Assembly (NCBI GenBank): GCA_017557405.1
Contig: JAFYYV010000031.1
Location: 1-63,349 of the forward strand
Direction of reading: 5' to 3'
Length of the DNA: 63,349 bases
DNA from: Prevotella sp.
Lineage (GTDB): Bacteria; Bacteroidota; Bacteroidia; Bacteroidales; Bacteroidaceae
Shown: in pieces, positions 4,203 through 59,828 of the stretch
Layout: each line of letters begins with the position of its first letter
Numbering within the stretch: position 1 is the first letter of the stretch
Made by a program: the position numbers and the translations under genes
The notes under the pieces: model-generated
Databases searched by the model: none
Seen by the model: the letters and a program-made list of their open reading frames with translations, nothing else
What the model was told of the DNA's origin: nothing

Positions 4203-7200
4203 TCAGTGCGCTGCTTCTTCTCCTTTTATATATTCGATGAGGTTCTTGAACAGGGGGTTGGTGGAGAGAATCTTCTCGTTGCCAGTGAGGATGAGGCGTT
4301 TGCGGGCGCGAGTGAGGGCGACATTCAGTTTGCGGTCGATGATTCGTCCGTCTTCCTCGAAGCAGTTGCTGGTGAGGAAATCGAGTTGATAGCGATGTTG
4401 GATGGTGAAGGAATAGATGATGACATCGCGTTGCGAACCTTGATAGCGCTCGACGGTATCGATGGTGATGGATTGTAGTTCGGGAATGCCCAGCTTTTCG
4501 ATTTCACGTCGTATCATGGCAATCTGGTTGCGATAGGGGACGATGACACCAACGGTCTTGTCGGGGTCGAAGATCTTGTTTTCCTCTTGATGTTGCTGAT
4601 AGACTTTCTGGAGCTCGTTGGCGACAATGCGGGCTTCCTCAAGATTCGACTTGTCGGAGAGGGTATGAAGCCCCCTCTGTTGGGTGTTATTCGCTGTCTT
4701 TGAGGGGATGAACACGACGCGTGGCGTGGTGGTGGGTTCTTCCTGATGGGGCAGCGGAACAGGTTGCAACTGCTCGAGCTGGTAGAACATGCGGTTGGGC
4801 CATTCGGCGATGTCAGGGTGCATACGCCCTTGGTAGCGCAGGATGCCGAGGAAACAGCCCCCTCCCGTCCTCCCCCCGTAGGGGAGGAGATTGTTGGATA
4901 ATGAATTTTCGACAGATGGACACAGATGTTGGATGTTGCGCAGCAGTCGTTCGAAGAGGGAGTCGCGGCAGTTGGTGAGTCCGATGGACAGCAACAGAGG
5001 GTCGTCGACAGCCGACTCTTGTTCGCTTTGTTGGACGACGGCTGGCAGTTGTTTGTGGTCGCCGATGAGGATGAATCGTTTGATTTGCGGTCGGCAGAGC
5101 AATCCGATGATGTTGGGTTCGAGAATCTGACTGGCTTCGTCGACGATGGCGAGCGAGAAGCGGGTGATGTTGAAGAGGATGGTGCGCGACATGAGGGTGG
5201 CCGTCGTGGCGACAATGACACGCGCTGAGGTGATGGTGCTCTTGATGGCTGAGAGGGTGGGGTTTTCCCTCACGGCATTCTCGAGCAGATGGCTTCGGAA
5301 CCGTGGGTCGCAGGAGGACTCGTATCCGATGCGCAGGAAAGGGATGTCGGCGTTGCAGAGCATGTCGCAAATCTCGTCTACAGCTCGATTGGTGTAGGCC
5401 ATGAGGAGGAGGGTGGCAGTGGGGTTTGTCAGCTCTTCCTCGACCAGGAAACGCAGGGCCATTGTGGTCTTTCCTGTTCCAGGAGGACCGATGAGCAGGA
5501 AGTAATCCAACGCTTGTTTCGCGCGCAGGAGGATGTCGTCGTAGTTGGGATGATAGTGGCGAGTGAGTTGGAGGCTGCTGTCGTTTCGTGGTGGACGCTG
5601 TCCGAGCAGGAGGGCTCGGCGGTCGGCGTCGGCGGTGATGAACTGGTGGAGTCCCGACATAGCGGCATTGGTGGTGGCGTCGGTGGGAGAATGTTCTACG
5701 GCAAAGACGTTCGTAGCACCCAGCGTGTCGATGCTCTGCTGGTTGGTGAGGTGCAACGTGAGTTGCTTCACCGAGAGCTCGCTGATGTTGGCTTTGTGGA
5801 GGATGCTCTTTCGTGCATCGGGGCCTTCGGCGGGGTCGTAGGCGTAGAGGTAAACAAGGTCGCCGCGTCGGAAGTTGGGTAGGAAGTCGATGCCTTGCTC
5901 GGGGATGTCCAGGGTGAGGGAAAGCCCCCTCCAACCTCCCCCAAAAGGGTGAGGCTTAACTTCTTCTAGACATTGCTTTCCCCTTCGGCCATCGACCTTT
6001 GCTTCCCGACTAAGCTCGCCCATTCCCGACGTTTCATCGCTTACCCGTTGCCTTTGTTGGTTGATGGTCAATCCTACGTATATGTTTCCCGTTTCGAGTT
6101 TCTCGTAGAGCGGCATGTTCCAGAGGTCGGAGGCGGCTCCGCTGCCTGCGTTGTTGGCACATCCCACTTTCGAGAGCAGTTGCTCTTTTATCACGAAGGT
6201 GGCCATGCGGCAGAAGTAGGCGCGCTCGAGCGGCGGCATGTTCTGCAGGGGTGTGGTGATTCTGTCGAGCTCGGGCAGCAGGTATCTTTCCCAGAAGAAA
6301 CCGCTGCATTGCTCGGTGTTCATGGTGTCGGGCGTGAGGTCAGGGAGGATGTCCTGGAATCCGTTTTGTGCGATGCGGTATTCGTCGGCCACGATGCAGT
6401 TGCGCAGTTTGATGGCTTCCCGCAACAGTTTTTGCAGGGGCGCCACCTCGATGAGCCCGTCGGGAAGTTGGTATTTCGAATAGAGCAGCAGCATGTCAAT
6501 CTGTCGCGACGAGACGTTGAAATTGTTGGCGAGGATGGCATAATAGAGCAGCATCTGCACGTAGTGTTTTTCGACGTGTTGCCCATAACGTCCGTGCGTG
6601 TTCCGCTCGATGTTCATGTTCTTCCCAGCCTTCTGCTCCACAAGGAGCTTCATGTCGGTGGTAATGAGGTCGGCGCGCCCTTGAATGCCGAGTTGTTCGC
6701 AGATGAACGAGGGCTCGGTCATGGCCTTCTCACGCGGGTGTTTCTTGAACAGTTCGTCCACGCTGTCGATGATGTTCTTGCGTTGAATCTCAGCGTCTTG
6801 CTTGAAGGATTTGGGTTCGAAGTCTTCGCAGGCACTGAAGGCGAGCGCTTGCTCTTTGAAACTGGCGCGCAGGGTCTCGGCGAACGGCGTGTCGGGATTG
6901 TGCAGGATGTCGTCGAGGAACTTGCCGGCGAGGTTTCCCATCAGGATGTGTCGGTTGGTGTTTCTCGGTGCGAGTCGGCGGAGTTGGTAGAGGAGGTGGT
7001 GATGACCGTATTCCTCGAAGCAAGCCGCGAGGCTGCTGATGTCGATGAGGTAGTCGGGTTCGACGACGACGAGATGAGGGATGAGGGTGATATTGGGTGT
7101 TGGGTGTTGGGTGTTAGGTGTTGGAGATTGGGTGTTAGGATTCCCGCTGAAGCGCCTACCCGTAGCCTTTGTTGGGTGTTGGCTGATGGGGGATGGATAT

Positions 7201-7805
7201 TGGCAATCGAGCAGGTTGAGTTGCATTCCTTCGTGGAGGATGTCGTCAAGGTAGGACAGGTCGATGTATTCGGGTGTGTCTTTGAGGTTGATGTGGATGA
7301 TGTCGGGCGTTTGCGTATTGGTGGTGATGGCTTGAATGCCGTCGTCATCGATTTTTTGGATGATGCAACGGATATTGGATGAGTGATGAAGGATGAAGGA
7401 TGAAGGATTAGGGATGTGAGGGGAAAGAGTTGAGGGAGGGATGGGTATGATAGAAGGGATGGACTTTTTAAACACAGCAGAAACGAACTCGGCGGTGGCT
7501 CTGAGGTCGAGGGCTACCTCCTCATCGGTGAGTTCGTGTTTGAGGGAGATGCTGTGGTGTCGTGCCCGCTGGATGGCTATGGTGTGGGCGGCACTCATCT
7601 GGTGCATCTTGGCGAGAGCGTCGATTTGCGAAGAGAGGTTGCCGAAGTTGTGCTGCGATTGTCGGAGCCCATGCTGGCAGGTGAGCATGAGGGCTTGCGT
7701 GATGTTTTTCTTGATGTCGTCTTGTGTCGTGTTGTGAGTGTCGATGACATCGATGAGTTTCTGGAACAGCTCTTCAGCGTTTATGTTGTTTGGTTCATGG
7801 TCCAT
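4203..7805 (-). CDS. Dna2-like helicase-nuclease (PD-(D/E)XK plus SF1 helicase)
   Basis: The protein has 1200 residues. The N-terminal half carries a PD-(D/E)XK nuclease core (GRADLITTDMKLLVEQKAGK, about residues 372-392). The C-terminal half is a superfamily 1 helicase of the Dna2/UPF1 type: Walker A GPPGTGKT near 772, AYTNRAVDE, DEAS near 886, GDHKQLPA near 913, QGRMHP near 990, TVERYQGSQRD, and ALTRARKR near 1161. It should unwind and cut DNA. Four repeat-derived stretches interrupt it in frame, at about residues 130-142, 210-237, 582-628 and 970-983; the last lies just before the QGRMHP motif. All core motifs survive, so it is probably active. The start ATG at 7805 lies 25 bases from a TAnnTTTG box. 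Whether it belongs to defence or to housekeeping repair cannot be told from the sequence. Confidence 0.85.
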   Translation of the reverse strand: MDHEPNNINAEELFQKLIDVIDTHNTTQDDIKKNITQALMLTCQHGLRQSQHNFGNLSSQIDALAKMHQMSAAHTIAIQRARHHSISLKHELTDEEVALDLRATAEFVSAVFKKSIPSIIPIPPSTLSPHIPNPSSFILHHSSNIRCIIQKIDDDGIQAITTNTQTPDIIHINLKDTPEYIDLSYLDDILHEGMQLNLLDCQYPSPISQHPTKATGRRFSGNPNTQSPTPNTQHPTPNITLIPHLVVVEPDYLIDISSLAACFEEYGHHHLLYQLRRLAPRNTNRHILMGNLAGKFLDDILHNPDTPFAETLRASFKEQALAFSACEDFEPKSFKQDAEIQRKNIIDSVDELFKKHPREKAMTEPSFICEQLGIQGRADLITTDMKLLVEQKAGKNMNIERNTHGRYGQHVEKHYVQMLLYYAILANNFNVSSRQIDMLLLYSKYQLPDGLIEVAPLQKLLREAIKLRNCIVADEYRIAQNGFQDILPDLTPDTMNTEQCSGFFWERYLLPELDRITTPLQNMPPLERAYFCRMATFVIKEQLLSKVGCANNAGSGAASDLWNMPLYEKLETGNIYVGLTINQQRQRVSDETSGMGELSREAKVDGRRGKQCLEEVKPHPFGGGWRGLSLTLDIPEQGIDFLPNFRRGDLVYLYAYDPAEGPDARKSILHKANISELSVKQLTLHLTNQQSIDTLGATNVFAVEHSPTDATTNAAMSGLHQFITADADRRALLLGQRPPRNDSSLQLTRHYHPNYDDILLRAKQALDYFLLIGPPGTGKTTMALRFLVEEELTNPTATLLLMAYTNRAVDEICDMLCNADIPFLRIGYESSCDPRFRSHLLENAVRENPTLSAIKSTITSARVIVATTATLMSRTILFNITRFSLAIVDEASQILEPNIIGLLCRPQIKRFILIGDHKQLPAVVQQSEQESAVDDPLLLSIGLTNCRDSLFERLLRNIQHLCPSVENSLSNNLLPYGGRTGGGCFLGILRYQGRMHPDIAEWPNRMFYQLEQLQPVPLPHQEEPTTTPRVVFIPSKTANNTQQRGLHTLSDKSNLEEARIVANELQKVYQQHQEENKIFDPDKTVGVIVPYRNQIAMIRREIEKLGIPELQSITIDTVERYQGSQRDVIIYSFTIQHRYQLDFLTSNCFEEDGRIIDRKLNVALTRARKRLILTGNEKILSTNPLFKNLIEYIKGEEAAH
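4856..4897. repeat. 42-bp GC-rich palindromic element, copy 1 (in helicase)
   Basis: This 42-bp stretch contains CCCCC...GGGG inverted halves and is the exact reverse complement of 59547-59588. In the helicase it is read as NNLLPYGGRTGGGC, in a different frame from the copy in the HAD gene. Confidence 0.85.
5921..6060. repeat. Composite repeat block inside helicase gene
   Basis: Bases 5923-5956 form a 34-bp palindrome-like element that is the exact reverse complement of 62852-62885. They are followed by a divergent copy of the ATTCC-hairpin-TACCCGTAGCCTTT element ending near 6057. Together they add roughly 45 residues to the helicase (about residues 582-628) without breaking the frame. Confidence 0.75.
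7095..7170. repeat. Heptamer array plus 31-bp hairpin element in helicase gene
   Basis: Bases 7095-7136 are six 7-base units (GGGTGTT x3, AGGTGTT, GGAGATT, GGGTGTT). The 31-bp element at 7140-7170 is identical to 59083-59113. In the protein this gives a Pro/Thr/Asn/Gln-rich stretch at about residues 212-237. Confidence 0.85.
7381..7415. repeat. Heptamer array inside helicase gene
   Basis: Five 7-base units: GAGTGAT, GAAGGAT three times, then TAGGGAT. The same unit types recur at 55341-55375 inside a different gene. Confidence 0.8.
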
Positions 7806-7829
7806 AGTTCATGATTCATAATTATTTTG

Positions 7830-7837
7830 CAAAAATA
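7830..7837 (-). promoter_or_regulatory. -7 box for the helicase gene
   Basis: On the minus strand these bases read TATTTTTG, matching TAnnTTTG, 25 bases before the helicase ATG. A TTG (complement of 7857-7859) lies 19 bases further upstream as a weak -33 box. It interleaves with the divergent clpS promoter. Confidence 0.55.
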
Positions 7838-7847
7838 CATTATTTAT

Positions 7848-7878
7848 TTTGTATTTCAATGATTTTCGTGTAATTTTG
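7848..7878 (+). promoter_or_regulatory. Promoter of clpS-clpA
   Basis: TTTG at 7848-7851, then 19 bases, then TAATTTTG at 7871-7878: a full Bacteroidetes sigma promoter. It ends only 5 bases before the clpS ATG at 7884, so the leader is extremely short or absent. Confidence 0.65.
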
Positions 7879-7883
7879 CAACT

Positions 7884-8189
7884 ATGGCAAAAGAACAATC
7901 AACAATTCGCGAGCGTGAGCGTTTGGATGTGCGTGAGCCTCGCCGCTACCAGGTCATCATCTTCAACGACGACTTCACCACGATGGAGTTTGTCGTGAGG
8001 CTTTTGATCAGCGTTTTCCACAAGTCGCCAGCAGAAGCCGAGCAGCTGATGATGATGGTTCATCGGTCGGAGAAGGCCGTGGTGGGGATTTACAGTTACG
8101 ACGTCGCCGTGTCGAAGGTGCAGAGGGGCTTGGCGATGGCGCGACAGGAAGGTTTTCCTCTGCGATTGACTTATCAACCCGAAGAATGA
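7884..8189 (+). CDS. clpS: ATP-dependent Clp protease adaptor ClpS
   Basis: The protein has 101 residues, normal for ClpS. The signature NDD at about 27-30, TTMEFVVRLL, EAEQLMMMVH and GFPLRLTYQPEE match the adaptor that holds N-terminal Leu/Phe/Trp/Tyr residues and hands substrates to ClpA. It starts at the ATG at 7884, directly after a full promoter. clpA begins one base after its stop, so the two are translationally coupled. The Aat transferase that makes Leu/Phe N-degrons follows clpA, so the three form one pathway. The cytoplasmic N-degron role is established for the family and not shown here. Confidence 0.95.
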   Translation: MAKEQSTIRERERLDVREPRRYQVIIFNDDFTTMEFVVRLLISVFHKSPAEAEQLMMMVHRSEKAVVGIYSYDVAVSKVQRGLAMARQEGFPLRLTYQPEE

Positions 8190-8190
8190 T

Positions 8191-10503
8191 ATGGAATACA
8201 CCGAGAAAATGAGCCGCCTGCTTCATCAGGCGTATATATATGCCACCACCAATCGTTTCGAACTCCTGATACCCGAACATCTGTTGCTGGCTTTCGTGCA
8301 AGACACCCAATTCCGTGCGGCATTGATGGTTTGCGAGGTGGATGTTGACGAGCTGGAGCACGAGTTGAAGACTTTTCTCGACGAACAGGAAAGGGTTCCC
8401 GAAGGACAAGACTACGAGCTCGACATGTCGTACCAGTTTGGCAACATGCGTTCGTTGGCAGCCAATCACGCCATCTATGCTTCGCGCGACCATCTCGACG
8501 TCACGCATTTCGTCTATGCGATGATGGAACTGGAGGAGTCGATGGCGGCTTTCCTGCTGAACAAACATCTTGGCGATAACAAGGGCGAGTTCCTCTCCAC
8601 GTTGATCTCGATGCTCTCTGACGCGGAGCAGCCACTGCAGAATGACGATGACGCCGCCTATGTTGGTGCTTCGGAGGAGTCGGAAGAGGAGGATACGTCG
8701 TGGAAGACGTTGGTGACCTGCATGAACGACACGGTGGACCAACACAACCCGCTCATCGGACGTGAACAGGAACTGGAACGCACGATACAGGTGCTTTGCC
8801 GCAAGGACAAGAACAACCCGCTGCACGTGGGCGAGCCAGGTGTGGGCAAGACGGCGCTGGTGTATGGATTGGCGGCTCGCATAGAGCACGGAGAGGTGCC
8901 CGACCGATTGAAAGGCAGTCGTATCTACCAGATGGATATGGGTACGATGTTGGCGGGAACTCAGTTTCGTGGCGACTTCGAGAAACGCATCAAGCAGGTG
9001 ATGGATGGTGCTGAAAAGGAGGGGCACGCCATTGTCTATATCGACGAGATACACAATATGATTGGTGCAGGTCGTACAGGCGATGGAGGTCCTGATGCCT
9101 CGAACATGCTGAAACCTTATCTCGAACGGGGTGACATCCGTTTCATCGGTTCCACCACCTACGAGGAATACAACCGTCATTTTGCCCGTCAGCGCGGTAT
9201 CGTGCGACGTTTCCAACAGATTGACATCGCCGAACCGAGCGTGGAGGATACCATCGAGATTTTGAAAGGATTGCGTCCGCAATATGAGTTGTTCCACAAT
9301 GTGACTTACAGCGACGACATCATCGAATATACCGTGCGACAGAGTGCCCGGCTCATCGTCGACCGCCAGCTTCCTGATAAGGCCATCGACTTGATTGACG
9401 AGGCTGGTGCCTACCTTGAGATGACTCGGAATAGGGGGCAGGAGACTGCTACAGAGGAAACGCCGACGGTGGAAGAAACATTGGAACCGCAACCCGTCAC
9501 TCGTTCGCTCATTGCCGACATTCTGGCAAAGGTGTGCAAGGTGGATGCGGCGGCCATGAAGGAGGAAGACAACTCGGAACTCGCTACACTCCGCGACCGC
9601 ATGTTGGCAAAGATTTATGGGCAGAACAGCGCCATCGACCAGGTGGTGGAGGCCATTCAGATGGCAAAGGCCGGATTGCTCGACGACGACAAGCCTTTGG
9701 CTTCGTTGCTCTTCGTGGGTCCTACGGGCGTTGGAAAAACCGAGGTGGCACGACAGTTGGCCAACGAGCTGGGTGTGCAGTTGGTAAGGTTTGACATGAG
9801 TGAATACACCGAACGACATGCAGTTGCCAAACTCATCGGTTCGCCGGCTGGATATGTGGGCTACGAGGATGGCGGTTTGTTGACCGATGCCATCCGTAAG
9901 ACACCCAACTGCGTGTTGCTGTTGGACGAAATAGAGAAGGCCCACCAGGACATCTACAACATCCTGCTGCAGGTGATGGATTATGCCCGACTGACCGACA
10001 ATCGCGGTCAGAAGGCCGATTTCCGTAACGTGGTGCTCATTATGACCTCGAATGCAGGTGCGCAATTTGCCTCGCAGGCGAACATCGGATTCCAGTCGAA
10101 GGTGTCGCGTGGTGAAGCGATGTTGGCACAGGTGAAGAAGACGTTCAAACCTGAGTTCATCAATCGTCTCTCAGGAACCGTCGTTTTCCGCGATATGGAC
10201 GAGGAGATGGCTTCGATGATTCTCGACAAGAAACTGCGTGAGCTGGAGCAGAAACTGCAGGCGAAGAATGTGACCCTCGACCTCAGCGAAGAAGCTCGCA
10301 AACGATTGCTTGAGAAAGGTTTTACTCGGGAGTATGGTGCACGCGAGATGGATCGCGTCATCAGTCATGACCTGAAACCATTGCTCATGCGCGAGATACT
10401 CTTCGGGCAGTTGCAGAAAGGTGGAAAGGCCTTGCTGTGCCTGCAAGAAGGAGAACTGGCGTTGACGTGCCAGACGGCGTTGCTGGAAGAAAAAAGTGAG
10501 TGA
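8191..10503 (+). CDS. clpA: ATP-dependent Clp protease ATP-binding subunit ClpA
   Basis: The protein has 770 residues, close to typical ClpA. It has an N-terminal Clp_N repeat domain (about 1-145), an acidic linker, and two AAA+ modules: Walker A GEPGVGKT at 214-221 with Walker B IVYIDEIHN, and Walker A GPTGVGKT at 510-517 with LLLDEIEKAH. An IGF tripeptide in ANIGFQSK (about residue 630) is the expected ClpP-docking loop. There is no ClpB-type coiled-coil middle domain, which fits ClpA or ClpC, and the adjacent clpS settles it as ClpA. It unfolds substrates for ClpP in the cytoplasm. No clpP is in the window. The long opposite-strand frame over this gene is a codon shadow. Confidence 0.95.
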   Translation: MEYTEKMSRLLHQAYIYATTNRFELLIPEHLLLAFVQDTQFRAALMVCEVDVDELEHELKTFLDEQERVPEGQDYELDMSYQFGNMRSLAANHAIYASRDHLDVTHFVYAMMELEESMAAFLLNKHLGDNKGEFLSTLISMLSDAEQPLQNDDDAAYVGASEESEEEDTSWKTLVTCMNDTVDQHNPLIGREQELERTIQVLCRKDKNNPLHVGEPGVGKTALVYGLAARIEHGEVPDRLKGSRIYQMDMGTMLAGTQFRGDFEKRIKQVMDGAEKEGHAIVYIDEIHNMIGAGRTGDGGPDASNMLKPYLERGDIRFIGSTTYEEYNRHFARQRGIVRRFQQIDIAEPSVEDTIEILKGLRPQYELFHNVTYSDDIIEYTVRQSARLIVDRQLPDKAIDLIDEAGAYLEMTRNRGQETATEETPTVEETLEPQPVTRSLIADILAKVCKVDAAAMKEEDNSELATLRDRMLAKIYGQNSAIDQVVEAIQMAKAGLLDDDKPLASLLFVGPTGVGKTEVARQLANELGVQLVRFDMSEYTERHAVAKLIGSPAGYVGYEDGGLLTDAIRKTPNCVLLLDEIEKAHQDIYNILLQVMDYARLTDNRGQKADFRNVVLIMTSNAGAQFASQANIGFQSKVSRGEAMLAQVKKTFKPEFINRLSGTVVFRDMDEEMASMILDKKLRELEQKLQAKNVTLDLSEEARKRLLEKGFTREYGAREMDRVISHDLKPLLMREILFGQLQKGGKALLCLQEGELALTCQTALLEEKSE

Positions 10504-10530
10504 AAACGAGGGATTGTGCGATATATTTTG

Positions 10531-29275: not shown

Positions 29276-29407
29276 GTCACATGTGGCATCTGAGGCGCTC
29301 ATAGTTATGCTTTGACCCGCTTACATGTGGCATCTGACGCCCTCAAAGCATAGCTATGACAAGCTCATTCCATACATTTGACCACCTCATTGCATAGCTT
29401 TGACAAC
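29276..29407 (+). repeat. Six degenerate 22-bp tandem units
   Basis: Units start at 29276, 29298, 29320, 29342, 29364 and 29386, each exactly 22 bases. Units 1 and 3 share ACATGTGGCATCTGA; units 2, 4, 5 and 6 follow CTCAtdnCATAGctwTGACnnn. There are no spacers, so this is not CRISPR. The same period and consensus recur at 63119-63184. Confidence 0.8.
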
Positions 29408-30196: not shown

Positions 30197-32791
30197 TTAA
30201 AGTCGATTCTTCTCGGCATTACCAGCTCCAGTTCCCTTGTACTTCGACGGGGTGACATTGAAGCGATAGCGCAGGGAGAGCTGGACGCAACGGGAGTCGT
30301 TGTTCTCCTCCTTATGAATCATCAAGCGATTGCTGTAGAGTGTGAAGCGGTTGATGCCGCCATTAAAGAGGTCATTGCCTGTCAGTTTGATGTTTAGACG
30401 CCGTTTGAGGAAGTCCTTGCTCACGCTGAGCGAGAGTATGGCATTGGTACAGTCGAACCAAGCATTCTGCTGATAGCCATGCGTGTGCATATTGAAGTCA
30501 GCTTGCAACAACCAGTCGTGAGGTAAGGTTACGATATTCCCTAACTGCAAAACCAACATAGGATGGTTGAAATTCTTTTCTTCGTCAAGGAATGTTGATT
30601 TGAACCACGGCTTCATCAGCGACACGTTGTATTGTGGCGTCCATGTGGCTTGGCCCAGCTTAACATTCTTCTGTGCGCCGAGCGTGACAGTAATCCAGTC
30701 GGCGTGGTCGTAGTTCTTGTGGGTGACGAAGTTTACTTTCGAATCTTCTTCCAGACTGCTCGCCGTGTAGAGAATAGGATCAACACAATGAGAGAAGTTC
30801 GCAGCCAGATAGAGCCACTTCCACATCGCCATCGCGTTTAGGTTGTGGTATTTGATAGATTTCAGATAGGGGTTGCCCGTCTGTCGATTCAAGCGGTTTT
30901 CATAGATAACATCGCTACTCAATTGCCAATACGACGGTCGAGTTGTGCGCTTTGCGTAACTGAAAGATAGTTGTAGATTCTTGGCTGATGTAGAAACTGA
31001 AATGGACGGAAATAGGTCGTCGTAGGAACGGCATTGCTCGTCGCGACGCAGACCATTTGCAAAGTATTCAGATTCCACATGTTCGTAACGCAAACCAGCG
31101 GACAGTTGGAAGTGTCCAAGACGTTGGCGCAGTTCCATGAATGGTGCAATATTGCTTTCGTGCTGCTCGTTGTTGCTGTTGGCAATGTATCCCTCCTGAT
31201 TGTCAAATCTGCTTTTCCAACGCGTATTGGTGTATTCCTCGCCGACTTCTATCTGACCTTTCCATAGTGGATGGGTAACAAATAGTTTCTCAGCAAACAG
31301 ATTGCTGCGTGTCTGACTCTCTGTATTCACATCGCGGTCTTCGTACTCGGCGCTGAGTTCCTGCTGCTGATTGCGACTCTGCTGTTTGCGGGCGGTATAA
31401 TCTGCGTTGAAGTCGATGCTGAGTTGCCCCACTTTTCCTGTGTAGTAAAGGTTCACCTGATGGATGGGGGTGTTCTTGTCACACCGGACGCTGCTGTTCT
31501 GCAGATGGTCGTATGTCTTCCCGTCAGCCAGCAAATCATCATCATACTTGCTGCGGGTCTTCACGTAGTCGTAAGTGTTCTGGTAGAAGCCACCGAAAGA
31601 ATGGTTGTCGTTGATCTGGTAGTTGAAACCGAAGCGTCCTTCTAAGAAAGGATTGTGAACATTATCCTTCTGCTTATTGTTAATCACCCAAAGTGTATCG
31701 GCAAAGACGGTCTGCTCGAACTCGCCACTGCTTTTCCTTCTGTTGTAGGCGCCGAAGAGGTTGGCAAAGAGTTCCAATCCCCCCGTGCGGTAGGTCAAAT
31801 TGATGCGCTCGTTGTTTGCGTAACCGTGCCCTCTGCGGCTCCACGATGTCAACTCCACGCCCAGGCCTTCGCCCGCAGCGCGCTTGGTGCGGATGATGAT
31901 GACTGCATTAACCGAAGCATCATAGCGAGCACCCGGGTTCTGAATAACCTCGACGTTCTTGATGTTGTCCGATTGGACGTTCTTCAGTTCGTTCAAGTCG
32001 GTCAATTTGCGATTGTTCAGGTAAATGAGCGGAGCACCCTTTCCTAAGATTTCAAAACCTTCGCCCCGCTTTGCAATCATCGGAACGCGTGTGAGTACAT
32101 CCTCTGCTGTTCCAAGCCGCTCCATCACGGTTCCTTCCACGTTCATCATCAGCGAGTTTCCCTGTAATTGAACTTTTGGACGTTCACCCTGCACTACCAC
32201 ACCATTCAAGGTGTAGTTATCGGGCTGCATCCGTATGGTTCCCATTTCGGACTGACTGCAAAGACGATAAATGGTTTTATAACCAACATAGGAGATGCGG
32301 GCGAGGACTTTTTCCTGCTCGTAAGGGATGGCAAAATAACCGCTCTCGTTCGAAACCCCACCACAGAGCAGAGTGGAATCTTGGGGCGAGAGCAAGGCGA
32401 TGTTGGCGTAAGCCACAGGTTGCCCTTGTTCGTCGACGATGGTGCCCGTCAGGTGGCGGTCGGTCTTATGGGTACACTCCACGAAGATTTCAAGATTGTC
32501 GGGGGCAATGGTCATGCGGACGGGATAGAAGCCAATCATCTGCTGGATAGCTTCGGGCAACGTCTTGCGATTGACCGATGTCGTGATGCGGAAGTCCTCC
32601 AACTCGTTGTAAATGAAGCTGATGGCTATGTCCGTCTGCTCCCGGCTCAACTGAAGCAGGGCCTCGCTGAGCGACACATTATTATATTGTCGGGTGATGC
32701 GCATTCCCGCTGAAGCGCCCATCCGTTGCCTTTGGCTATGCGCTACGCTAAATGACAAAAGAAGAACAAGAAGTAAGCTCAGACGTCTCAT
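30197..32791 (-). CDS. STN/CarboxypepD outer-membrane beta-barrel protein
   Basis: The protein has 864 residues with a signal peptide ending in VAHS. Domains in order: an STN-like domain (about 35-110: VSLSEALLQLSREQTDIAIS, LPEAIQQMIGF), a CarboxypepD-regulatory domain (about 117-200: LTGTIVDEQGQPVAYANIAL), a plug (about 200-310: GNSLMMNVEGTVMERLGTAEDVL, NNRKLTDLNELKNV, VEVIQNPGARYDAS) and a barrel of the OMP_b-brl_3 type to the C-terminus. It follows ECF sigma and anti-sigma genes, overlapping the latter by 4 bases, which suggests surface signalling or a sigma-controlled outer-membrane protein. The ligand is unknown. Residues just after signal cleavage (RQRMGASAGM) come from a dispersed repeat at 32703-32733. 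Confidence 0.85.
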   Translation of the reverse strand: MRRLSLLLVLLLSFSVAHSQRQRMGASAGMRITRQYNNVSLSEALLQLSREQTDIAISFIYNELEDFRITTSVNRKTLPEAIQQMIGFYPVRMTIAPDNLEIFVECTHKTDRHLTGTIVDEQGQPVAYANIALLSPQDSTLLCGGVSNESGYFAIPYEQEKVLARISYVGYKTIYRLCSQSEMGTIRMQPDNYTLNGVVVQGERPKVQLQGNSLMMNVEGTVMERLGTAEDVLTRVPMIAKRGEGFEILGKGAPLIYLNNRKLTDLNELKNVQSDNIKNVEVIQNPGARYDASVNAVIIIRTKRAAGEGLGVELTSWSRRGHGYANNERINLTYRTGGLELFANLFGAYNRRKSSGEFEQTVFADTLWVINNKQKDNVHNPFLEGRFGFNYQINDNHSFGGFYQNTYDYVKTRSKYDDDLLADGKTYDHLQNSSVRCDKNTPIHQVNLYYTGKVGQLSIDFNADYTARKQQSRNQQQELSAEYEDRDVNTESQTRSNLFAEKLFVTHPLWKGQIEVGEEYTNTRWKSRFDNQEGYIANSNNEQHESNIAPFMELRQRLGHFQLSAGLRYEHVESEYFANGLRRDEQCRSYDDLFPSISVSTSAKNLQLSFSYAKRTTRPSYWQLSSDVIYENRLNRQTGNPYLKSIKYHNLNAMAMWKWLYLAANFSHCVDPILYTASSLEEDSKVNFVTHKNYDHADWITVTLGAQKNVKLGQATWTPQYNVSLMKPWFKSTFLDEEKNFNHPMLVLQLGNIVTLPHDWLLQADFNMHTHGYQQNAWFDCTNAILSLSVSKDFLKRRLNIKLTGNDLFNGGINRFTLYSNRLMIHKEENNDSRCVQLSLRYRFNVTPSKYKGTGAGNAEKNRL
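32703..32733. repeat. 31-bp hairpin element copy in OMP gene
   Basis: Matches the 31-bp element of 7140-7170 with a few substitutions (CATCC and TTG in place of TACCC and TAG) and keeps the CGC-TGAA-GCG hairpin tip. It encodes the residues after the OMP signal-peptide cleavage site. Confidence 0.75.
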
Positions 32792-35795: not shown

Positions 35796-35826
35796 AAAGG
35801 CTACGGGTAGGCGCGTTAGCGGGAAT
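35796..35826 (-). repeat. 31-bp hairpin element copy, intergenic
   Basis: On the minus strand this matches the 31-bp element, with the hairpin tip changed from CGC-TGAA-GCG to CGC-TAAC-GCG, so the stem is kept and only the loop differs. Confidence 0.85.
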
Positions 35827-53470: not shown

Positions 53471-54045
53471 AAAAGCGCGTCGGCATCTACGGAGGCTCTT
53501 TCAACCCCATCCACAAAGGGCATATCGCGCTGGCCAAGCAGATTTTGAAGCAGGCGCGGCTCGATGAGGTGTGGTTCATGGTGTCGCCTCTTAATCCGTT
53601 CAAGGTGGCCGATGCCGACCTGCTTGACGACCATTTGCGGTTGCAGATGACACAGAAGGCACTTGCCTCCGAACCCCGGCTGCTTGCTTGCGATTACGAG
53701 TTCCATCTGCCTCGTCCCTCCTATACATGGGACACGCTGCAGGCTCTTTGTCGCGATTATCCTGACTATGAGTTTGTACTCCTTATAGGAGCCGACAACT
53801 GGGTGAAGTTCGACCGTTGGTATCACTCTGCCGACTTGCTCCAGAATTTCCAGATCGTCGTCTATCCGCGTGAAAATTCGCCTATCGATGCCGACACATT
53901 GCCGTCGAATGTGCTGTTGGTGAATACCAAGCTTTATCGCATGAGCAGCACCGACATCCGCCAGCGCATCCGCGAAGGGCGACCCATCAAACGATTGGTA
54001 CCTGCCGCCATTCTTGACGATGTGGCAGTTTATCGGAAAATCTAG
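53467..54045 (+). CDS. nadD: Nicotinate-nucleotide adenylyltransferase
   Basis: The protein has 192 residues. It makes deamido-NAD from nicotinate mononucleotide and ATP. Signatures: VGIYGGSFNPIHKGHIALA with the HxGH motif, WFMVSPLNPFK, LIGADNWVKFDRWYHS and the C-terminal MSSTDIRQRIREGRPI (ISSTxIR motif). It overlaps gmk by 4 bases and leads into the envelope-gene run 40 bases downstream. Confidence 0.95.
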   Translation: MKKRVGIYGGSFNPIHKGHIALAKQILKQARLDEVWFMVSPLNPFKVADADLLDDHLRLQMTQKALASEPRLLACDYEFHLPRPSYTWDTLQALCRDYPDYEFVLLIGADNWVKFDRWYHSADLLQNFQIVVYPRENSPIDADTLPSNVLLVNTKLYRMSSTDIRQRIREGRPIKRLVPAAILDDVAVYRKI

Positions 54046-54085
54046 TATCTTGCACTTCAAATAATTTAAGGTGAAAGGCATCAGT

Positions 54086-55954
54086 ATGACACTACGAAAC
54101 ATCCTTGGCAAAGCATTGAGCGCAGTGTTCCGTCCTATTGGCGCGAACGCCCGTTTCTTCGTATTCCTCTATGTGCTCGGGGTGGTGTGTGCTTGGCTGA
54201 CGTTGCCGCCGTATAAGACCGCTCGACTCTACCACAATCTTTATCTCGAGTTGTTCTTCGACCTCTACGTGCTCTGCGCCTTCCTCATGCTCATTCCCCA
54301 GCGTGTACGCCGATGGGTGAGGGGAGTAGTGGCTGTGGTGCTCTATGTGTTGGCCATCATCGACGTTTATTGTTATGTGAAGTTCGGTTCGACCATCACG
54401 CCCACGATGCTTCTGCTTGTGGGTGAGACCGACGAGCGAGAAGCAGGTGAGTTTATAGCTTCGTTCTTCTCTTCCGATGTTGTTTTCGGTAAGGTGGGAT
54501 GGCTGTTGCTGATAGCTCTTGCCCATATCGCATGTGCCGTGTGGGGTGGAAAGTTGCGGAAGATGTTGGGTGGCCCCCTCCCAACCATTCCCGAGCAAAG
54601 CTCGCCTACCCGTAGCCTTTCCCCCCGTAGGGGAGGATACAGTTGGGTGTTGGAGGCTTTGGCTGGCCTTGCCACTTTGGTGCTGCTGGTTTGGTCGTCC
54701 ATTACGAGTTGGCCCAACAAGCAGGCATTTTGGCGGATGATGAATCTGCAGACGCCCGGACAGGTAGAGGCCGAACTCAATCGACCCGATTGCGTGAATT
54801 GTTATGAGTCGCCCTATCGACTTGCCTTCAGCATCCGCTCGAACCAGTTGGCGGCCAAGCAGATAGACAAGCTCATCGAAGTGTCTCACCGTGTGCAGGT
54901 GGACAGTTGTTCCTATCGGTCGCCCCACATCGTCTTGATTATCGGTGAGAGTTTTGGTCGCCACCATTCTCAGCAGTATGGCTACTTCATGCCGACCACA
55001 CCACGACAGATACAGCGTGAGCACACAGGATTGTTGGTGCCGTTCACCGATGTTGTTGCTTCGTGGAACCTCACGAGTTTCGTCTTCAAGAGTCTTTTCT
55101 CCATGCATGTGGTGGGGCAGGAGGGTGAGTGGTGCGACTATCCGCTCTTTCCCGAGCTGTTCCGCAAGGCAGGCTACGATGTTACATTCCTGACCAACCA
55201 GTTCTTGCCGAAAGCCAAGGAGGCTGTCTACGACTTCTCGGGCGGGTTCTTCTTGAATAATCCCAAACTCTCAGCGGCCATGTTCGACCATCGCAATGAA
55301 AAGACGCACATCTTTGACGAAGGATTGTTGGCAGATTATGATAGGATGAAGGATGAAGGAATAGGGATGAAGGATGGAAAGCCTCGCTTGACCATTTTCC
55401 ATCTGTTGGGACAGCATCTGAACTATCGCACACGTTGTCCGAACAGCAAGAAACATTTCAAACCCGAGGATTACAACGAGCGTCGCCCTGAACTGAATGC
55501 CAAACAGCGTCGCCTGTTGTCCGACTACGACAACGCCTGCCTTTACAATGATTCCATTGTCGACCAGATTTGCCGTCGAATGGAGAACGAAGAGGCTATC
55601 GTCATCTATATGCCCGATCATGGAGAAGAGTGCTACGAGGGTACACGGGGCATCATCTGCCGCAACCACTCAGCTGAGATTGACCGCGACTTGGCACGCT
55701 ATGAATTTGAGATACCCTTCTGGATATGGTGCTCACCCCGCTATGCCGCCGTGCATCCCGAGGTGTTCAAACAGGTCATCGAAGCGCGTCAGCGTCCGCT
55801 CATGACCGATGCCGTTGCTCACACGCTGCTCTATCTGGCTGGCATAGAGTCGTCTTGGTACAAGCCCGAGTATGACGTGTTGTCGGCCGACTACAACGAA
55901 AAACGTCCACGAATATTGAAGAATACAACCGATTATGACCAACTTGCTGAATAG
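54086..55954 (+). CDS. Phosphoethanolamine transferase-like membrane sulfatase-fold protein
   Basis: The protein has 622 residues from the ATG at 54086 (a GTG at 54071 is possible). About five membrane spans fill residues 20-240, followed by a periplasmic alkaline-phosphatase/sulfatase-fold domain: HIVLIIGESFGRHHSQQYGY (metal Glu near 288), NLTSFVFKSLFSMHV (probable Thr nucleophile), DVTFLTNQ, ITIFHLLGQH-like and YMPDHGEECYEG. It resembles EptA/CptA enzymes that add phosphoethanolamine to lipid A. Two repeat blocks are read in frame: residues about 162-190 between membrane spans and about 419-431. It overlaps the next acyltransferase gene by 20 bases. Confidence 0.85.
   Translation: MTLRNILGKALSAVFRPIGANARFFVFLYVLGVVCAWLTLPPYKTARLYHNLYLELFFDLYVLCAFLMLIPQRVRRWVRGVVAVVLYVLAIIDVYCYVKFGSTITPTMLLLVGETDEREAGEFIASFFSSDVVFGKVGWLLLIALAHIACAVWGGKLRKMLGGPLPTIPEQSSPTRSLSPRRGGYSWVLEALAGLATLVLLVWSSITSWPNKQAFWRMMNLQTPGQVEAELNRPDCVNCYESPYRLAFSIRSNQLAAKQIDKLIEVSHRVQVDSCSYRSPHIVLIIGESFGRHHSQQYGYFMPTTPRQIQREHTGLLVPFTDVVASWNLTSFVFKSLFSMHVVGQEGEWCDYPLFPELFRKAGYDVTFLTNQFLPKAKEAVYDFSGGFFLNNPKLSAAMFDHRNEKTHIFDEGLLADYDRMKDEGIGMKDGKPRLTIFHLLGQHLNYRTRCPNSKKHFKPEDYNERRPELNAKQRRLLSDYDNACLYNDSIVDQICRRMENEEAIVIYMPDHGEECYEGTRGIICRNHSAEIDRDLARYEFEIPFWIWCSPRYAAVHPEVFKQVIEARQRPLMTDAVAHTLLYLAGIESSWYKPEYDVLSADYNEKRPRILKNTTDYDQLAE
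54571..54653. repeat. Composite palindromic repeat block inside transferase gene
   Basis: GGCCCCCTCC, then a hairpin element (54587-54620) whose tip is CGAGC-AAA-GCTCG rather than CGC-TGAA-GCG, then CCCCCCGTAGGGGAGG as in the 42-bp element, then a GGGTGTT heptamer. It encodes residues about 162-190, between membrane segments. Confidence 0.8.
55341..55375. repeat. Heptamer array inside transferase gene
   Basis: ATAGGAT, GAAGGAT, GAAGGAA, TAGGGAT, GAAGGAT: five 7-base units, read as MKDEGIGMKD. The units match those in the helicase gene at 7381-7415. Confidence 0.8.
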
Positions 55955-57014
55955 ACAACAGTGCCAGGCGTTGCGTGGAATCGCCATCATTGGCATCTTC
56001 CTGCACAACTATTGCCATTGGCTGAAAGGAATCGTCAGGGAGAACGAATACCAGTTCTTCCAGCGCAATGTCGCAGGTCTTGATGGCGTGTTGTTCCACC
56101 CCGATTGGAATCTGCCCATCCATCTGCTGTCGTTCTTTGGACACTATGGCGTTCCGCTGTTCCTGTTCCTCAGCGCATACGGTTTGGTGTTGAAATACGA
56201 GTCGCGTCCTTATCCTCTTTCCAACGGAAACGGGACGGATAAGTTCTGGACTCCGCTGAAAGGCAGTTGGCGGTTCATTCGCTATCATTTCCTGAAACTC
56301 TTCAAGATGATGGTTGTCGGATATGTTGCCTTCGTGCTGATTGACTTCATCACACCCCACCACCATCACTATCAGCTGCTCGACATTGTGGGACAGCTAT
56401 TGATGTTCAACAATGTGATGCCCGATCCTGACCACATTATCTGGCCTGGACCTTATTGGTTCTTCGGATTGATGTTGCAGCTTTACATCGTTTATCGACT
56501 GCTGCTCTATCGTAGGCATTGGGGAGTAACAGTTGCCTTGATGGTCGTCTGCACGCTGATACCGTTGTTCATGGCCCCCGAAGGCGAGGCACTCAATCGC
56601 TATCGTTACAACTTTATGGGAGGCATGCTGCCCTTCGGATTCGGATTGCTTTGCGCTCGATTCCCGATGTATCTGAAGAAGACCTATTGCTGGCTGTTCG
56701 CCTTGCTTTCCGCGATGCTCATCTACAACGAGAGCCACGACTTCCTCGGTTGGTTGTTGGTACCTGTGTTCGTCTGTTCGTTGGGCGTCACCATCGTGAA
56801 AGTGATGCCACAATGGTTGTTGCGTCCGTTGGAGTGGATGGGCGGCATATCGGCTGCTTTGTTCGTCTGCCATCCCATCACACGAAAGATACTGATACCC
56901 TTGTCGCATGGCGGCGATGTCTATGCAGGGCTGTTGCTCTACGTGGTGGCTTCCATCTGTGTCGCTTGGCTTTTCAGCGAACTCTTCAAGCGCATTCCGA
57001 ATCCGAAATATTGA
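55935..57014 (+). CDS. Acyltransferase family 3 membrane protein
   Basis: The protein has 359 residues with about ten membrane spans. The N-terminus QCQALRGIAIIGIFLHNYCHW has the conserved RGIAI and His of acyltransferase_3 (OafA-type) proteins. GHYGVPLFLFLSAYGL is the second conserved segment. These O-acylate sugars of surface glycans or lipids. It starts 20 bases inside the preceding gene, so translation is coupled. Its stop codon is the first part of a TTGAACA heptamer array. Confidence 0.8.
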   Translation: MTNLLNRQQCQALRGIAIIGIFLHNYCHWLKGIVRENEYQFFQRNVAGLDGVLFHPDWNLPIHLLSFFGHYGVPLFLFLSAYGLVLKYESRPYPLSNGNGTDKFWTPLKGSWRFIRYHFLKLFKMMVVGYVAFVLIDFITPHHHHYQLLDIVGQLLMFNNVMPDPDHIIWPGPYWFFGLMLQLYIVYRLLLYRRHWGVTVALMVVCTLIPLFMAPEGEALNRYRYNFMGGMLPFGFGLLCARFPMYLKKTYCWLFALLSAMLIYNESHDFLGWLLVPVFVCSLGVTIVKVMPQWLLRPLEWMGGISAALFVCHPITRKILIPLSHGGDVYAGLLLYVVASICVAWLFSELFKRIPNPKY

Positions 57015-57052
57015 ACGTTGAAGATTGAACATTGAACATTGAGCATTGAAGA
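57011..57052. repeat. TTGAACA heptamer array starting at a stop codon
   Basis: Six 7-base units: TTGAACG, TTGAAGA, TTGAACA, TTGAACA, TTGAGCA, TTGAAGA. The stop TGA of the acyltransferase (57012-57014) lies in the first unit. Two more units (57099-57112) end exactly at the next ATG (57113). Confidence 0.9.
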
Positions 57053-57112
57053 TTCTTACACCTAAAGGTATAAGCGTTTTGGAAAAACGATTAGAAAATT
57101 GAACGTTGAACA

Positions 57113-58177
57113 ATGAACTGGAAGATAAAAGACATTGAACTGGCTAACATCAGTCGCTTCCGAGGCGAGCTGATGGGGGCTGCGATGTTGTTCGTCATCC
57201 TGTTCCATGTGTCGTTGCCACGTTCCGATGCTTTCTTCGGACTTCGTCGCATGGGAAACATTGGAGTCGACATCTTCTTGTTCCTCAGTGGAATAGGCCT
57301 GTGGTTCTCGTGGATGAAAGAGACCCCCCAAGCCCCCCTGTTTAGGGGAGTGAATGGGTTCGCCACTCGTTTGAAGCATTTCTATCAGCGTCGTTTCCTA
57401 CGCATCTACCCCGCTTGGCTCATCATGGCCAGCTTGTTCTATGTGCCCGACTACCTAGGACCTCGCAAGTTCTCGCAGACGTTTGTCGATTTGTTGGGCG
57501 ATGTGCTCATCAATTGGGATTTCTGGCTCTACGACGAGTTGACCTTCTGGTATGTCCCCAGCATCATGATGCTCTATCTGTTTGCTCCGTTCTACATGGC
57601 GCTCATCGACCGACATCCTGTTTACAAATGGTTGCCGGTGGTGATGGTCATGTGGTGCATTCTGGTGCAGTGGGTGACGCCCATTCATCAGGCAGTGGGC
57701 CATCTGGAGATATTCTGGAGTCGAGTACCCATCTTCTTTATCGGCATCAATATGGGCGAGATGGTGCGCCGCAAGGAAACCATCGATGGAGCGGGCATCT
57801 GGATGATTCTGCTCATGTTCGGAATGGCCCTCTCGGCAAGCCTCTTCTTGGAGCAGGTACGCCACGGGCAGTTCCCCTTGTTCATCGAGCGCATGCTCTA
57901 CATTCCATTGACGGTCACGAGTGTGCTGCTGTTGAATCGCGTGTTCCGCCGCACGCCACGATGGCTGAACGGCATCATGAAGTGGGTGGGCGCATTGAGT
58001 TTGGAGGCCTATCTGATACACCTCCATTTCGTATTGGTCTACATCGAGCCCTATCGATTGGGTTATTGGTGGACTTTCCTACTCACGGTGGCCATCACGC
58101 TGCCGTTGTCGTGGCTGCTGTTTAAAATCACGAGCGGCCTGCGGCCTAAAGGAAAAAGGATAAAAGAAAAAGGATAA
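57113..58177 (+). CDS. Acyltransferase family 3 membrane protein
   Basis: The protein has 354 residues with about ten spans. RGELMGAAMLFVILFHVSLPRSD and NIGVDIFLFLSGIGLWFSW are the acyltransferase_3 signatures, followed by FYQRRFLRIYPAWLI. It is a second, divergent member next to the one at 55935-57014. A palindromic repeat (57320-57355) inserts ETPQAPLFRGVNG between the second span and the FYQRR motif. The C-terminus LRPKGKRIKEKG is encoded by a GC palindrome plus a GGATAAA-type array. Target unknown; a lipid or surface sugar is likely. Confidence 0.8.
   Translation: MNWKIKDIELANISRFRGELMGAAMLFVILFHVSLPRSDAFFGLRRMGNIGVDIFLFLSGIGLWFSWMKETPQAPLFRGVNGFATRLKHFYQRRFLRIYPAWLIMASLFYVPDYLGPRKFSQTFVDLLGDVLINWDFWLYDELTFWYVPSIMMLYLFAPFYMALIDRHPVYKWLPVVMVMWCILVQWVTPIHQAVGHLEIFWSRVPIFFIGINMGEMVRRKETIDGAGIWMILLMFGMALSASLFLEQVRHGQFPLFIERMLYIPLTVTSVLLLNRVFRRTPRWLNGIMKWVGALSLEAYLIHLHFVLVYIEPYRLGYWWTFLLTVAITLPLSWLLFKITSGLRPKGKRIKEKG
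57320..57355. repeat. Palindromic element in acyltransferase gene
   Basis: CCCCCC..GCCCCCCTGTTTAGGGGAG core, related to the AGCCCCCTCC family. It codes for a short loop between conserved motifs. Confidence 0.6.
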
Positions 58178-58189
58178 AGGAGATTAAAA

Positions 58190-59068
58190 ATGAAAGGAAT
58201 GTTACGTCTTATCCGACCGAAGCATTGGATGAAGAACACCTTCGTGTTCCTCCCCATCTTCTTCAGCGGGCTTGTCTTCAATGGTCAGGCCATGTTCGCG
58301 GCATTTGTCGTGTTCCTGTCGTTCAGTTTCGCCGCTTCGTCGATTTATTGTTTCAACGACCTCGTTGATGTGGAGGCCGACCGCCGCCATCCTGTGAAAT
58401 GCCTGCGTCCTGTGGCTTCAGGAGCGGTGTCTGTAGGCAATGCCTATGCGCTGATGGGGTTGATGATATTGTTGTCGATGCTCGTCCTGTTGCTGTTGCC
58501 CGTCAACCGACTGCCCGTCTATGGCATCATCCTGTTCTATTGGCTGCTGAACCTCGCCTATTGCAAATGGCTGAAAAACTATGCTATTGTCGATGTCTGC
58601 GTGGTGGCCTTCGGCTTCGTGTTGCGCATATTGGCTGGAGGTGTTGCCGCAGCGGTGACACTCACCAACTGGATTGTACTGATGACCTTCCTGCTGACGC
58701 TCTTCCTCTCGTTTGCCAAACGCCGCGATGACGTGCTACGCATGCAACAGACGGGAGAACCACCCCGCCGCAATACCAGTCGCTACAATCTGACGTTCAT
58801 CAACCAGGCCATCACCATCACGGCCTCCGTCACGTTGGTCTGCTACATCATGTACACCGTCTCACCCCAGGTGACAGCCCGTTTCCACACCGATTACCTC
58901 TATCTGACGAGTGTGTTCGTGCTGGTGGGGTTGCTCCGATACATCCAGATAGCAGTGGTCGACAACAAGAGTGGCGACCCGACGAAAGTCATTCTTCACG
59001 ACCGCTTCACGCAGCTTGTGGTGCTGTTGTGGGGATTGTCGTTTGCGGTGATAATTTACTTCCTATAG
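58190..59068 (+). CDS. UbiA-type polyprenyl-phosphate phosphoribosyltransferase
   Basis: The protein has 292 residues and about nine spans. It starts LRLIRPKHWMKNTFVFLPIFFSG, and carries the first Asp-rich motif NDLVDVEADRRHPVKCLRPVASG (about 54-76), typical of decaprenyl-phosphate phosphoribose (DPPR) synthases. The second region is FAKRRDDVLRM. The family transfers 5-phosphoribose from PRPP to polyprenyl phosphate. A HAD phosphatase and a GtrA-like protein follow, as in the mycobacterial arabinose-donor pathway. The stop TAG overlaps the first bases of a repeat element. Confidence 0.85.
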   Translation: MKGMLRLIRPKHWMKNTFVFLPIFFSGLVFNGQAMFAAFVVFLSFSFAASSIYCFNDLVDVEADRRHPVKCLRPVASGAVSVGNAYALMGLMILLSMLVLLLLPVNRLPVYGIILFYWLLNLAYCKWLKNYAIVDVCVVAFGFVLRILAGGVAAAVTLTNWIVLMTFLLTLFLSFAKRRDDVLRMQQTGEPPRRNTSRYNLTFINQAITITASVTLVCYIMYTVSPQVTARFHTDYLYLTSVFVLVGLLRYIQIAVVDNKSGDPTKVILHDRFTQLVVLLWGLSFAVIIYFL

Positions 59069-59128
59069 CCCCCTCCAACCTCATTCCCGCTGAAGCGCCT
59101 ACCCGTAGCCTTTCCCAGAAAGGGGAGA
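59066..59128. repeat. Composite repeat at the UbiA gene stop codon
   Basis: AGCCCCCTCCAACCTC (from 59067) followed by the 31-bp element at 59083-59113, identical to 7140-7170, then CCCAGAAAGGGG. A GGATAAA array continues to the HAD start codon (59148). Confidence 0.85.
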
Positions 59129-59147
59129 CCTAAAGGATAAAGGATAA

Positions 59148-59828
59148 ATGATAAAGGATAAAGTATATGCCTTCGACTTCGATGGAACGTTGACTACGCG
59201 CGATACGTTTTTGGCGTTCATCCGCCACGCAAGGGGCAATCTCGCGTTCTTGTGGGGTATGCTGCTCCATTCGCCGTGGTTGGTGCTGATGAAGCTGGGT
59301 TTCTATCCCAACTGGAAGGCGAAGCAGCGTGTGTTCGCCCATTTCTTCAAGGGGATGACCATCGATGATTTCAATCAGCAATGCTGGTTCTTCGCCTACG
59401 ACAAACGAAGCCTGATTCGTCCGAAAGCCATCGAAGCCATCCGACAAGCGCAGATGGAGGGCTCCCACGTGCTGATAGTGAGTGCAAGCGTGGAGAATTG
59501 GGTCGGCCGATGCATCGAAGCCGCATTGGCCACCGCTCCCCAACAGCCAACAATCTCCTCCCCTACGGGGGGAGGACGGGAGGGGGCTCCCAACGTCCAA
59601 CAGTCAACATCCATCACCTTTTTGTGTACTCATATCGAGGTGGAAGACGAGCATCTCACGGGTCGGTTGCTTGGGAAGAACTGCTACGGAGTGGAGAAGG
59701 TGAACCGCATCCAGGAGGCTCTCCCCCAGCGTGAGGGCTACGAGTTGATTGCTTACGGCGACAGCCGAGGCGACAAAGAAATGCTTGAATATGCAGACGA
59801 AAGACATTATAAACCGTTTAGACGTTGA
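59148..59828 (+). CDS. HAD superfamily (subfamily IB) phosphatase
   Basis: The protein has 226 residues. HAD motif I is DFDGTLT (about 10-16), motif II is VSAS (about 110), and the Lys/motif III-IV region is EKVNRIQEALPQREGYELIAYGDSRGDKEML. It is probably the phosphatase that acts on the phosphoribosyl-polyprenol made by the adjacent UbiA-type enzyme, by analogy with mycobacteria. The 42-bp repeat (59547-59588) inserts about 20 residues rich in Pro, Gly and Ser (ISSPTGGGREGAP) between motif II and the cap segment FLCTHIEVEDEHLTGRLLG. The frame stays open and all motifs remain. It overlaps the GtrA gene by 38 bases. Confidence 0.85.
   Translation: MIKDKVYAFDFDGTLTTRDTFLAFIRHARGNLAFLWGMLLHSPWLVLMKLGFYPNWKAKQRVFAHFFKGMTIDDFNQQCWFFAYDKRSLIRPKAIEAIRQAQMEGSHVLIVSASVENWVGRCIEAALATAPQQPTISSPTGGGREGAPNVQQSTSITFLCTHIEVEDEHLTGRLLGKNCYGVEKVNRIQEALPQREGYELIAYGDSRGDKEMLEYADERHYKPFRR
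59547..59588. repeat. 42-bp palindromic element, copy 2 (in HAD gene)
   Basis: Exact reverse complement of 4856-4897. Here the bases are read in a different frame, as PTISSPTGGGREGA. Confidence 0.9.

Follow-up and report, generated by a model that had tools for sequence, protein, structure and literature searches.

The window analysed here is the stretch of Prevotella sp. DNA comprising positions 1 to 63,349 of contig JAFYYV010000031.1 (63,349 nucleotides). Two of its genes contain copies of a short palindromic element, here called B, which is probably one end of a mobile hairpin element with a nuclease gene of its own. The first is an SF1 helicase-type gene (AAA_11/AAA_12) at 4203..7805 on the minus strand, which hosts several repeat-derived insertions, the second encodes a HAD-IB family phosphatase at 59148..59828 on the plus strand. 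The copies occupy 4856..4897 (minus strand) in the helicase gene and 59547..59588 (plus strand) in the phosphatase gene, these 42-nt arms are exact reverse complements with 100% complementarity, as an earlier sequence-only reading of the window had claimed. That reading had also placed both copies within coding regions, in different codon frames and with neither frame broken. The open reading frames (ORFs) bear this out: the element is read in frame as NNLLPYGGRTGGG in the helicase (for 4856..4897 itself, NNLLPYGGRTGGGC) and, in another frame, as PTISSPTGGGREGA in the phosphatase. It was likewise right about the positions, just before QGRMHP in the helicase alignment and between motifs II and III, after the SAS motif, in the HAD alignment.

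The hairpin-forming part of each copy is about 21 bases long, with a stem of 8 and a loop of 5. The recurring unit is about 32–34 nt and consists of AGCCCCCTCC-N3-hairpin; the additional CCAACAAT common to both window copies resembles, by eye, part of a separate 7-base repeat. The 32-nt core is matched twice in the window and in none of 100 dinucleotide shuffles, and an Rfam scan of the window gave no match at the gathering threshold. The earlier description of a pair of 42-bp palindromes therefore holds for the identical inverted copies, it does not hold for the extent of the hairpin, and the element belongs to a family rather than a pair.

The source genome (3.56 Mb in 54 contigs, of which the window is contig C19) has its nearest named relatives in Prevotella and kin. 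The genome-wide search that the sequence-only reading had proposed found a dispersed family: the 21-base core has 33 matches with at most three mismatches, and a reversed-pattern control has 0. Its consensus reads CCTCCCCTACGGGGGGAGG-N3-GGGAGGGGGCT, the spacer being variable. Among 30 of the 33 core copies examined, 18 have a coding signal on both sides. These 18 use five phases (10, 3, 2, 2 and 1 copies), the sixth frame of the consensus contains a stop and is unused among them. The commonest reading of the core copies is (S)SPTGGGxEGA.

Genes were called with a simple codon-score script in an 861-kb sample of the source genome, which is not random: it includes the window and contigs picked for hits, and its coding fraction is 80%. 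A profile search of this sample found 26 copies, 17 in predicted genes (one a doubtful gene of 66 residues) and 9 between genes, and a looser pattern found 34 copies, 20 of them within genes. Hosts identified by Pfam include LplA, two AAA_11/AAA_12 helicases (the window's and one on contig C30), a RecD-like helicase, TsaE, ABC-F, GH31, LacZ, a glycosyltransferase, RecQ, an M16 peptidase and a TonB-receptor plug protein; some other hosts have Pfam matches solely below the curated cut-off, or none. The B form, with at most one mismatch, is present in 9 of 100 genomes of the same genus, and reaches high copy number only in the source genome (27), G068 (14) and G044 (6). In other species 9 of 21 examined B copies pass a coding test, including two, at one site in two species, in a gene that by eye appears to be mfd, and one site common to G044 and G068.

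Comparison with relatives shows what these genes look like without the repeat. Phosphatase relatives (20 of 40 genomes match, the source genome included) align up to about residue 124 and resume at about residue 153. None of the 19 matching relatives aligns over residues 125–152; 18 run across the site without the segment, and the remaining one is truncated at that point. In the helicase alignment (20 genomes) the element is missing from 20 of 21 sequences, all of which cover its position, and one is truncated. The clean insertion anticipated by the sequence-only reading is thus seen in both genes, and the same residues in distant homologues, which it had named as the outcome that would refute it, were looked for among the aligned relatives and not found. 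Two other helicase segments, residues ~203–240 and 590–625, are inserts made of other repeats and are missing in relatives that span them. The relative G008 has a different insert in the same helicase loop and another in its HAD protein, both of repeat origin by eye. Extra residues in LplA, TsaE, RecQ and LacZ are local insertions relative to solved homologues; further searches of the PDB gave no match at the thresholds used. Because relatives lack the inserted residues, the segments are read as insertions and not as ancestral protein, and the alignments support this reading for the repeat copies in genes. That the segments are ancestral protein which looks repetitive by chance has a negligible probability, it is ruled out by the relatives without the residues and by a core family with zero matches in the control and zero in the shuffles.

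The helicase loops after GPPGTGKT and before QGRMHP look like hot spots: some relatives have various inserts there, and two have a larger unit with a DUF559 gene, described below.

The sequence-only reading likened the element to Rickettsia palindromic elements (RPEs). As described in PMC10969869, RPEs are about 150 bp long, encode a conserved peptide, and occur in frame in many unrelated genes, where they are translated. The likeness is fair for palindromic DNA that lies in frame in unrelated protein genes and is translated with them. It does not extend to size or to a conserved peptide, as the present copies are 32–42 nt and are read in five phases (10 of 18 in the commonest). The host here is Prevotella-like, and similar hairpins flank a nuclease gene. 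Short palindromes were already known to occur inside genes of some bacteria, Rickettsia among them; where predicted proteins of such bacteria have inserted residues, these can be dispersed DNA repeats and not functional loops.

The nuclease gene belongs to DUF559 (PF04480), a Vsr-like family with a solved relative in 3hrl (E 4.8e-14). There are five matches above the Pfam cut-off in the source genome, and DUF559 is matched in 62 of 100 genomes of the genus and 78 of 148 of the phylum. A DUF559 match is present in 8 of 9 B-bearing genomes, compared with 62 of 100 in the whole set; G107, among the 8, is a short fragment. All five source genes have inverted AGnCC...GGnCT ends on both sides by eye. 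We also applied a strict rule, which demands a hairpin with a perfect stem of at least 7, a loop of 3–8 and 70% GC within 170 bases of the gene, to the source genes and to the 29 best-scoring DUF559 loci of each of the genus and phylum searches (no random draw). Hairpins occur on both sides at 3 of 5 source, 13 of 29 genus and 8 of 29 phylum loci, and on one side at 2, 9 and 13 of these. Control windows in helicase, HAD and Y1 loci (n = 59) gave 0 with both sides, 5 with one and 54 with neither. For 578 other predicted source genes the counts are 0 on both sides and 21 on one side; two DUF559-bearing predicted genes, which were scored at the ends of their host genes and have hairpins on neither side, were kept out of the 578. 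A Fisher test of genus DUF559 loci against other source genes gives P ~3e-19, for groups drawn from different genomes. Twenty further DUF559 loci, picked for their long frames, gave 13 with both sides, 5 with one and 2 with neither.

As a group, the left and right ends of the units also match each other, significantly so in the source and genus loci and in the phylum loci but not in the control. When left and right ends were permuted among the 34 source and genus loci, 0 of 20,000 permutations reached the observed sum; 10 of 34 true partners rank first and 18 of 34 are in the top three. The phylum loci (n = 29) gave 217 of 20,000 permutations and 10 of 29 ranked first, and the control (n = 59) gave 13,057 of 20,000 and 0 of 59. 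Ranks of the five source units are 10, 1, 2, 21 and 3. The matching inverted ends differ between DUF559 copies. On contig C16 the right end of the unit belongs to the B family of the window; searched against the sample, it matches its own position and 8 others.

The sequence-only reading had proposed looking for a RAYT-type or other transposase gene, and one explanation of the hairpins is that they are ordinary repetitive extragenic palindromes (REPs) moved by a RAYT (Y1, HUH) enzyme, with the DUF559 genes as unrelated passengers. REPs and REPINs with RAYTs are similar in being short hairpins, solo or in inverted pairs, around a nuclease gene; REPs are also found inside genes, many of them DNA repair genes (PMC3733652), and HUH subclasses and REPtrons have been described (PMC6006769). 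One Y1-type (HUH-like) ORF of 344 residues was found in the source genome (C16:297880-298914, L106:17880-18914), and 29 of 60 genomes searched, the source included, have a match. No B hairpin lies beside the source Y1 ORF. Of 30 Y1 loci fetched, 11 were tested by the strict rule, none has hairpins on both sides, 2 have one side and 9 neither, compared with 13 of 29 and 9 of 29 genus DUF559 loci with both sides and one side. Matched left and right ends are unexpected for passenger genes. The enzyme flanked by hairpins is a DUF559 protein of PD-(D/E)XK type and not HUH/Y1, the GTAG or CGTC tag at the foot of the stem is absent while GTA(G) occurs at the loop, and the copies are not mostly intergenic, with 17 of 26 profile hits in predicted genes and the unit itself nested in genes. 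This explanation is quite unlikely, and a RAYT as mover was rejected on the sole source Y1 match without B hairpins and the 0 of 11 Y1 loci flanked on both sides; the hairpin-flanked DUF559 nuclease is the better candidate.

Whole DUF559 units are found inside conserved genes. In the ABC-F gene at C16:34047-36497 two inverted B-type hairpins enclose a DUF559 domain. The alignments of relatives break into two adjacent pieces around residues 343–495, the unit is absent in 14 of 14 inspected relatives, of which G003 has a short unrelated insert there, and G044 carries a DUF559 unit at the same site. Ala-His occurs on both sides of the insertion, perhaps as a short duplication or by chance. In G061 and G046 a member of the window's helicase family has a DUF559 unit between GPPGTGKT and the next motif, a site that lacks the unit in the window and in the other aligned relatives (G003 and G006 have small other inserts, one sequence is truncated). 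Pfam places DUF559 between parts of LeuRS (two cases), GLF (Glf) and MetH. In the helicase just described, in an epimerase and in a GAF protein, alignment or reading by eye was used to recognise what lies beyond the unit, and HsdR, HsdM, a type IIG-like enzyme and a DegT-type aminotransferase were assigned as hosts by eye. LeuRS is an essential enzyme. The interrupted LeuRS, with the unit at three different sites, is the sole LeuRS over the family cut-off in 7 of 7 genomes tested (five of these have a listed completeness of 100% and two of 77–81%; two are single contigs).

A nuclease gene in frame in conserved genes, some of them essential, is also a feature of inteins and of homing endonuclease genes, Vsr-like ones included. 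The present units share with them a nuclease in frame in a conserved single-copy gene, seen here in LeuRS (7 of 7 genomes) and in ABC-F, and differ in having hairpin ends, solo copies at many unrelated sites and no splicing domain among those sought. The presence of a unit in the only copy found of an enzyme such as LeuRS would suit removal of the inserts after transcription, or their being skipped in translation, by intein-like splicing or ribosome bypass. The frame remains open throughout the inserts, however, Pfam gave no intein or splicing (Hint) domain at E 0.001 in the eight host proteins scanned, and other short in-frame inserts, of repeat origin by eye, occur at the same loops in some relatives. 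We regard removal as improbable.

The DUF559 family also includes the E. coli gene ycjD (L323:2440-3077), which has a match in 3365 of 5426 genomes and lies beside GC-rich palindromes of similar make-up. One palindrome downstream of ycjD is a member of a repeat family, possibly BoxC, that occurs at a median of 19 places per genome. In PMC2267715, on E. coli stem-loop families, BoxC is given as 22 found of 50 nt and 32 of 56 nt published. In the one ycjD-less E. coli strain inspected, 222, other genes adjoin fabI, so there is no clean empty site. DUF559 occurs in 2 of 50,697 records of a phage collection, one of which was inspected and has hairpins on both sides by a looser rule, and in 34 records of a plasmid collection. 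In each of the four plasmids inspected (E. coli KE47 and three cyanobacterial) GC-rich palindromes lie near the gene, as judged with the looser rule or by eye and with no counted test. No title among the 14 papers mentioning DUF559 in the literature searched, which excluded preprints and most subscription journals, links it to hairpins or mobile repeats.

We therefore favour the view that the window's 42-mers represent solo ends of a mobile hairpin element whose autonomous form is a DUF559 nuclease gene between inverted hairpins, and think this fairly probable. The element would insert into genes and be tolerated through translation, mostly as a linker rich in Gly, Ser and Pro. The autonomous form would comprise one small Vsr-like PD-(D/E)XK nuclease (DUF559) gene between two inverted copies of the hairpin, and the whole unit can sit in frame in a conserved gene without a splicing domain. 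We infer that the nuclease may recognise and move its own hairpins, and solo copies would be derived from DUF559 units or be by-products of them. Host proteins would keep working with the extra residues, the ends acting as linkers; since the hairpin ends encode linkers, the unit would need no splicing. Hairpins together with an in-frame DUF559 gene may be signs of a kind of mobile DNA not yet described. The broader proposal, for which we put the chances at a little under even, is that hairpin-ended DUF559 genes are a widespread, undescribed mobile class of one gene and two hairpins with neither recombinase nor splicing, which enters essential genes such as LeuRS and survives through its linker-encoding ends, and whose solo ends are orphan palindromic repeats in many bacteria, possibly including an E. 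coli family. If the DUF559 nuclease is the mover here, it becomes possible to test where many orphan hairpin repeats come from, and the nested units would illustrate in nature the insertion of a domain into essential enzymes through self-encoded linkers.

Several observations weigh against this view. G048 has one B copy and no DUF559 match, and by the strict rule 7 of 29 genus and 8 of 29 phylum loci (0 of 5 in the source genome) have hairpins on neither side. Two source units, L210 (rank 10 of 34) and L213 (rank 21 of 34), match weakly from left to right. The left end of the C16 unit finds itself alone in the sample, and several solo copies are found there for an end of just one of the five source units; of the others, the left end of L213 has a second place above threshold besides its own ends and one more unit has a weak hit elsewhere. 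Many DUF559 frames run into the downstream gene (Gmk, IspF or RNase HI, named by eye) and interrupt nothing. At ycjD the GC-rich palindromes are downstream only, the upstream hairpin is a different and less GC-rich one. PD-(D/E)XK nucleases are not known to join DNA strands, so a partner or host repair would be needed.

The edges of the copies provide a further such point. A target-site signature, which the sequence-only reading had suggested seeking, was absent: a search of 28 solo copies gave no target-site duplication (sum 36 against a shuffled mean of 45). Miniature inverted-repeat transposable elements (MITEs) and DDE insertion sequences have terminal inverted repeats, as the DUF559 units do as a group (the true partner ranks first in 10 of 34); a solo copy has a single end. 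The lack of a duplication argues against a DDE transposase and would fit a single-strand or repair-based insertion. It would also fit a passive process, in which recombination, template switching or gene conversion at GC-rich palindromes spreads the hairpins and the DUF559 units, and the nuclease acts only in repair or defence. In keeping with such a role, a DUF559 protein of Caulobacter is called Vsr-like in PMC12907096, and the restriction of several solo copies to one source unit in five points the same way. In 12 of 44 cases an A or B element has a 7-base tandem array within 40 bp, compared with 1% (coding) and 5% (intergenic) of random positions, which suggests a general tolerance of repeats. 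Inverted ends that match within a DUF559 copy and differ between copies are, by contrast, what a mobile unit predicts, and we consider passive spread unlikely.

Other repeats are present in the window. A second dispersed repeat, the A type (AAAGGCTACGGGTAGGCGCTTCAGCGGGAAT and a longer form), occurs at 7140-7170, 32703-32733, 35796-35826, 54587-54620 and 59083-59113 and is in frame in some genes. The copy at 7140..7170 (minus strand) is in frame in the helicase, where residues ~203-240 are absent from relatives spanning them, and is flanked at 7093..7136 (minus strand) by a 7-base tandem array of the TTGGGTG / CCAACAC type, also in frame. The array search found another in the same gene at 7377..7416 (minus strand), in frame as SSFILHHSS. 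A related palindromic element of the CTCACCC TTTT GGGGGAGG type lies at 5920..5956 (minus strand) in a region of the helicase absent from relatives spanning it, adjoined at 5972..6014 (minus strand) by an A2-type dispersed repeat which the repeat search and the reading frame place in frame. The repeat search and gene calls identify a composite of an A repeat and a partial B hairpin at 54587..54653 (minus strand), inside the predicted gene 54086-55954, and a B-related palindrome at 62852..62888 (plus strand), inside the predicted gene 61689-62969. The A-type copy at 59083..59113 (minus strand), found by the repeat search, is intergenic and just upstream of the HAD gene.

The 7-base arrays, of CCAACAC and CATCCTT types, are also in frame within genes on other contigs of the sample, which has 123 merged arrays of at least 21 bp, 41 of them in predicted genes. 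MiaB has a clean 10-residue array insert relative to 7mjv, and ManA a less clear one relative to 1qwr. The CCAACAN array pattern is found in 28 of 100 genomes of the genus and is very abundant in G080 and G095; it is present in 7 of the 9 genomes with B copies, though the count in G083 is not above its control.

The helicase (4203-7805) resembles the PADLOC MkoA model over residues 754–1194 (E 6.8e-59) and also, at a score under that model's curated cut-off, the NCBIfam PLuB helicase model. At 29279-29365 the window contains two imperfect 43-nt direct repeats (ACATGTGGCATCTGA...) between predicted genes.

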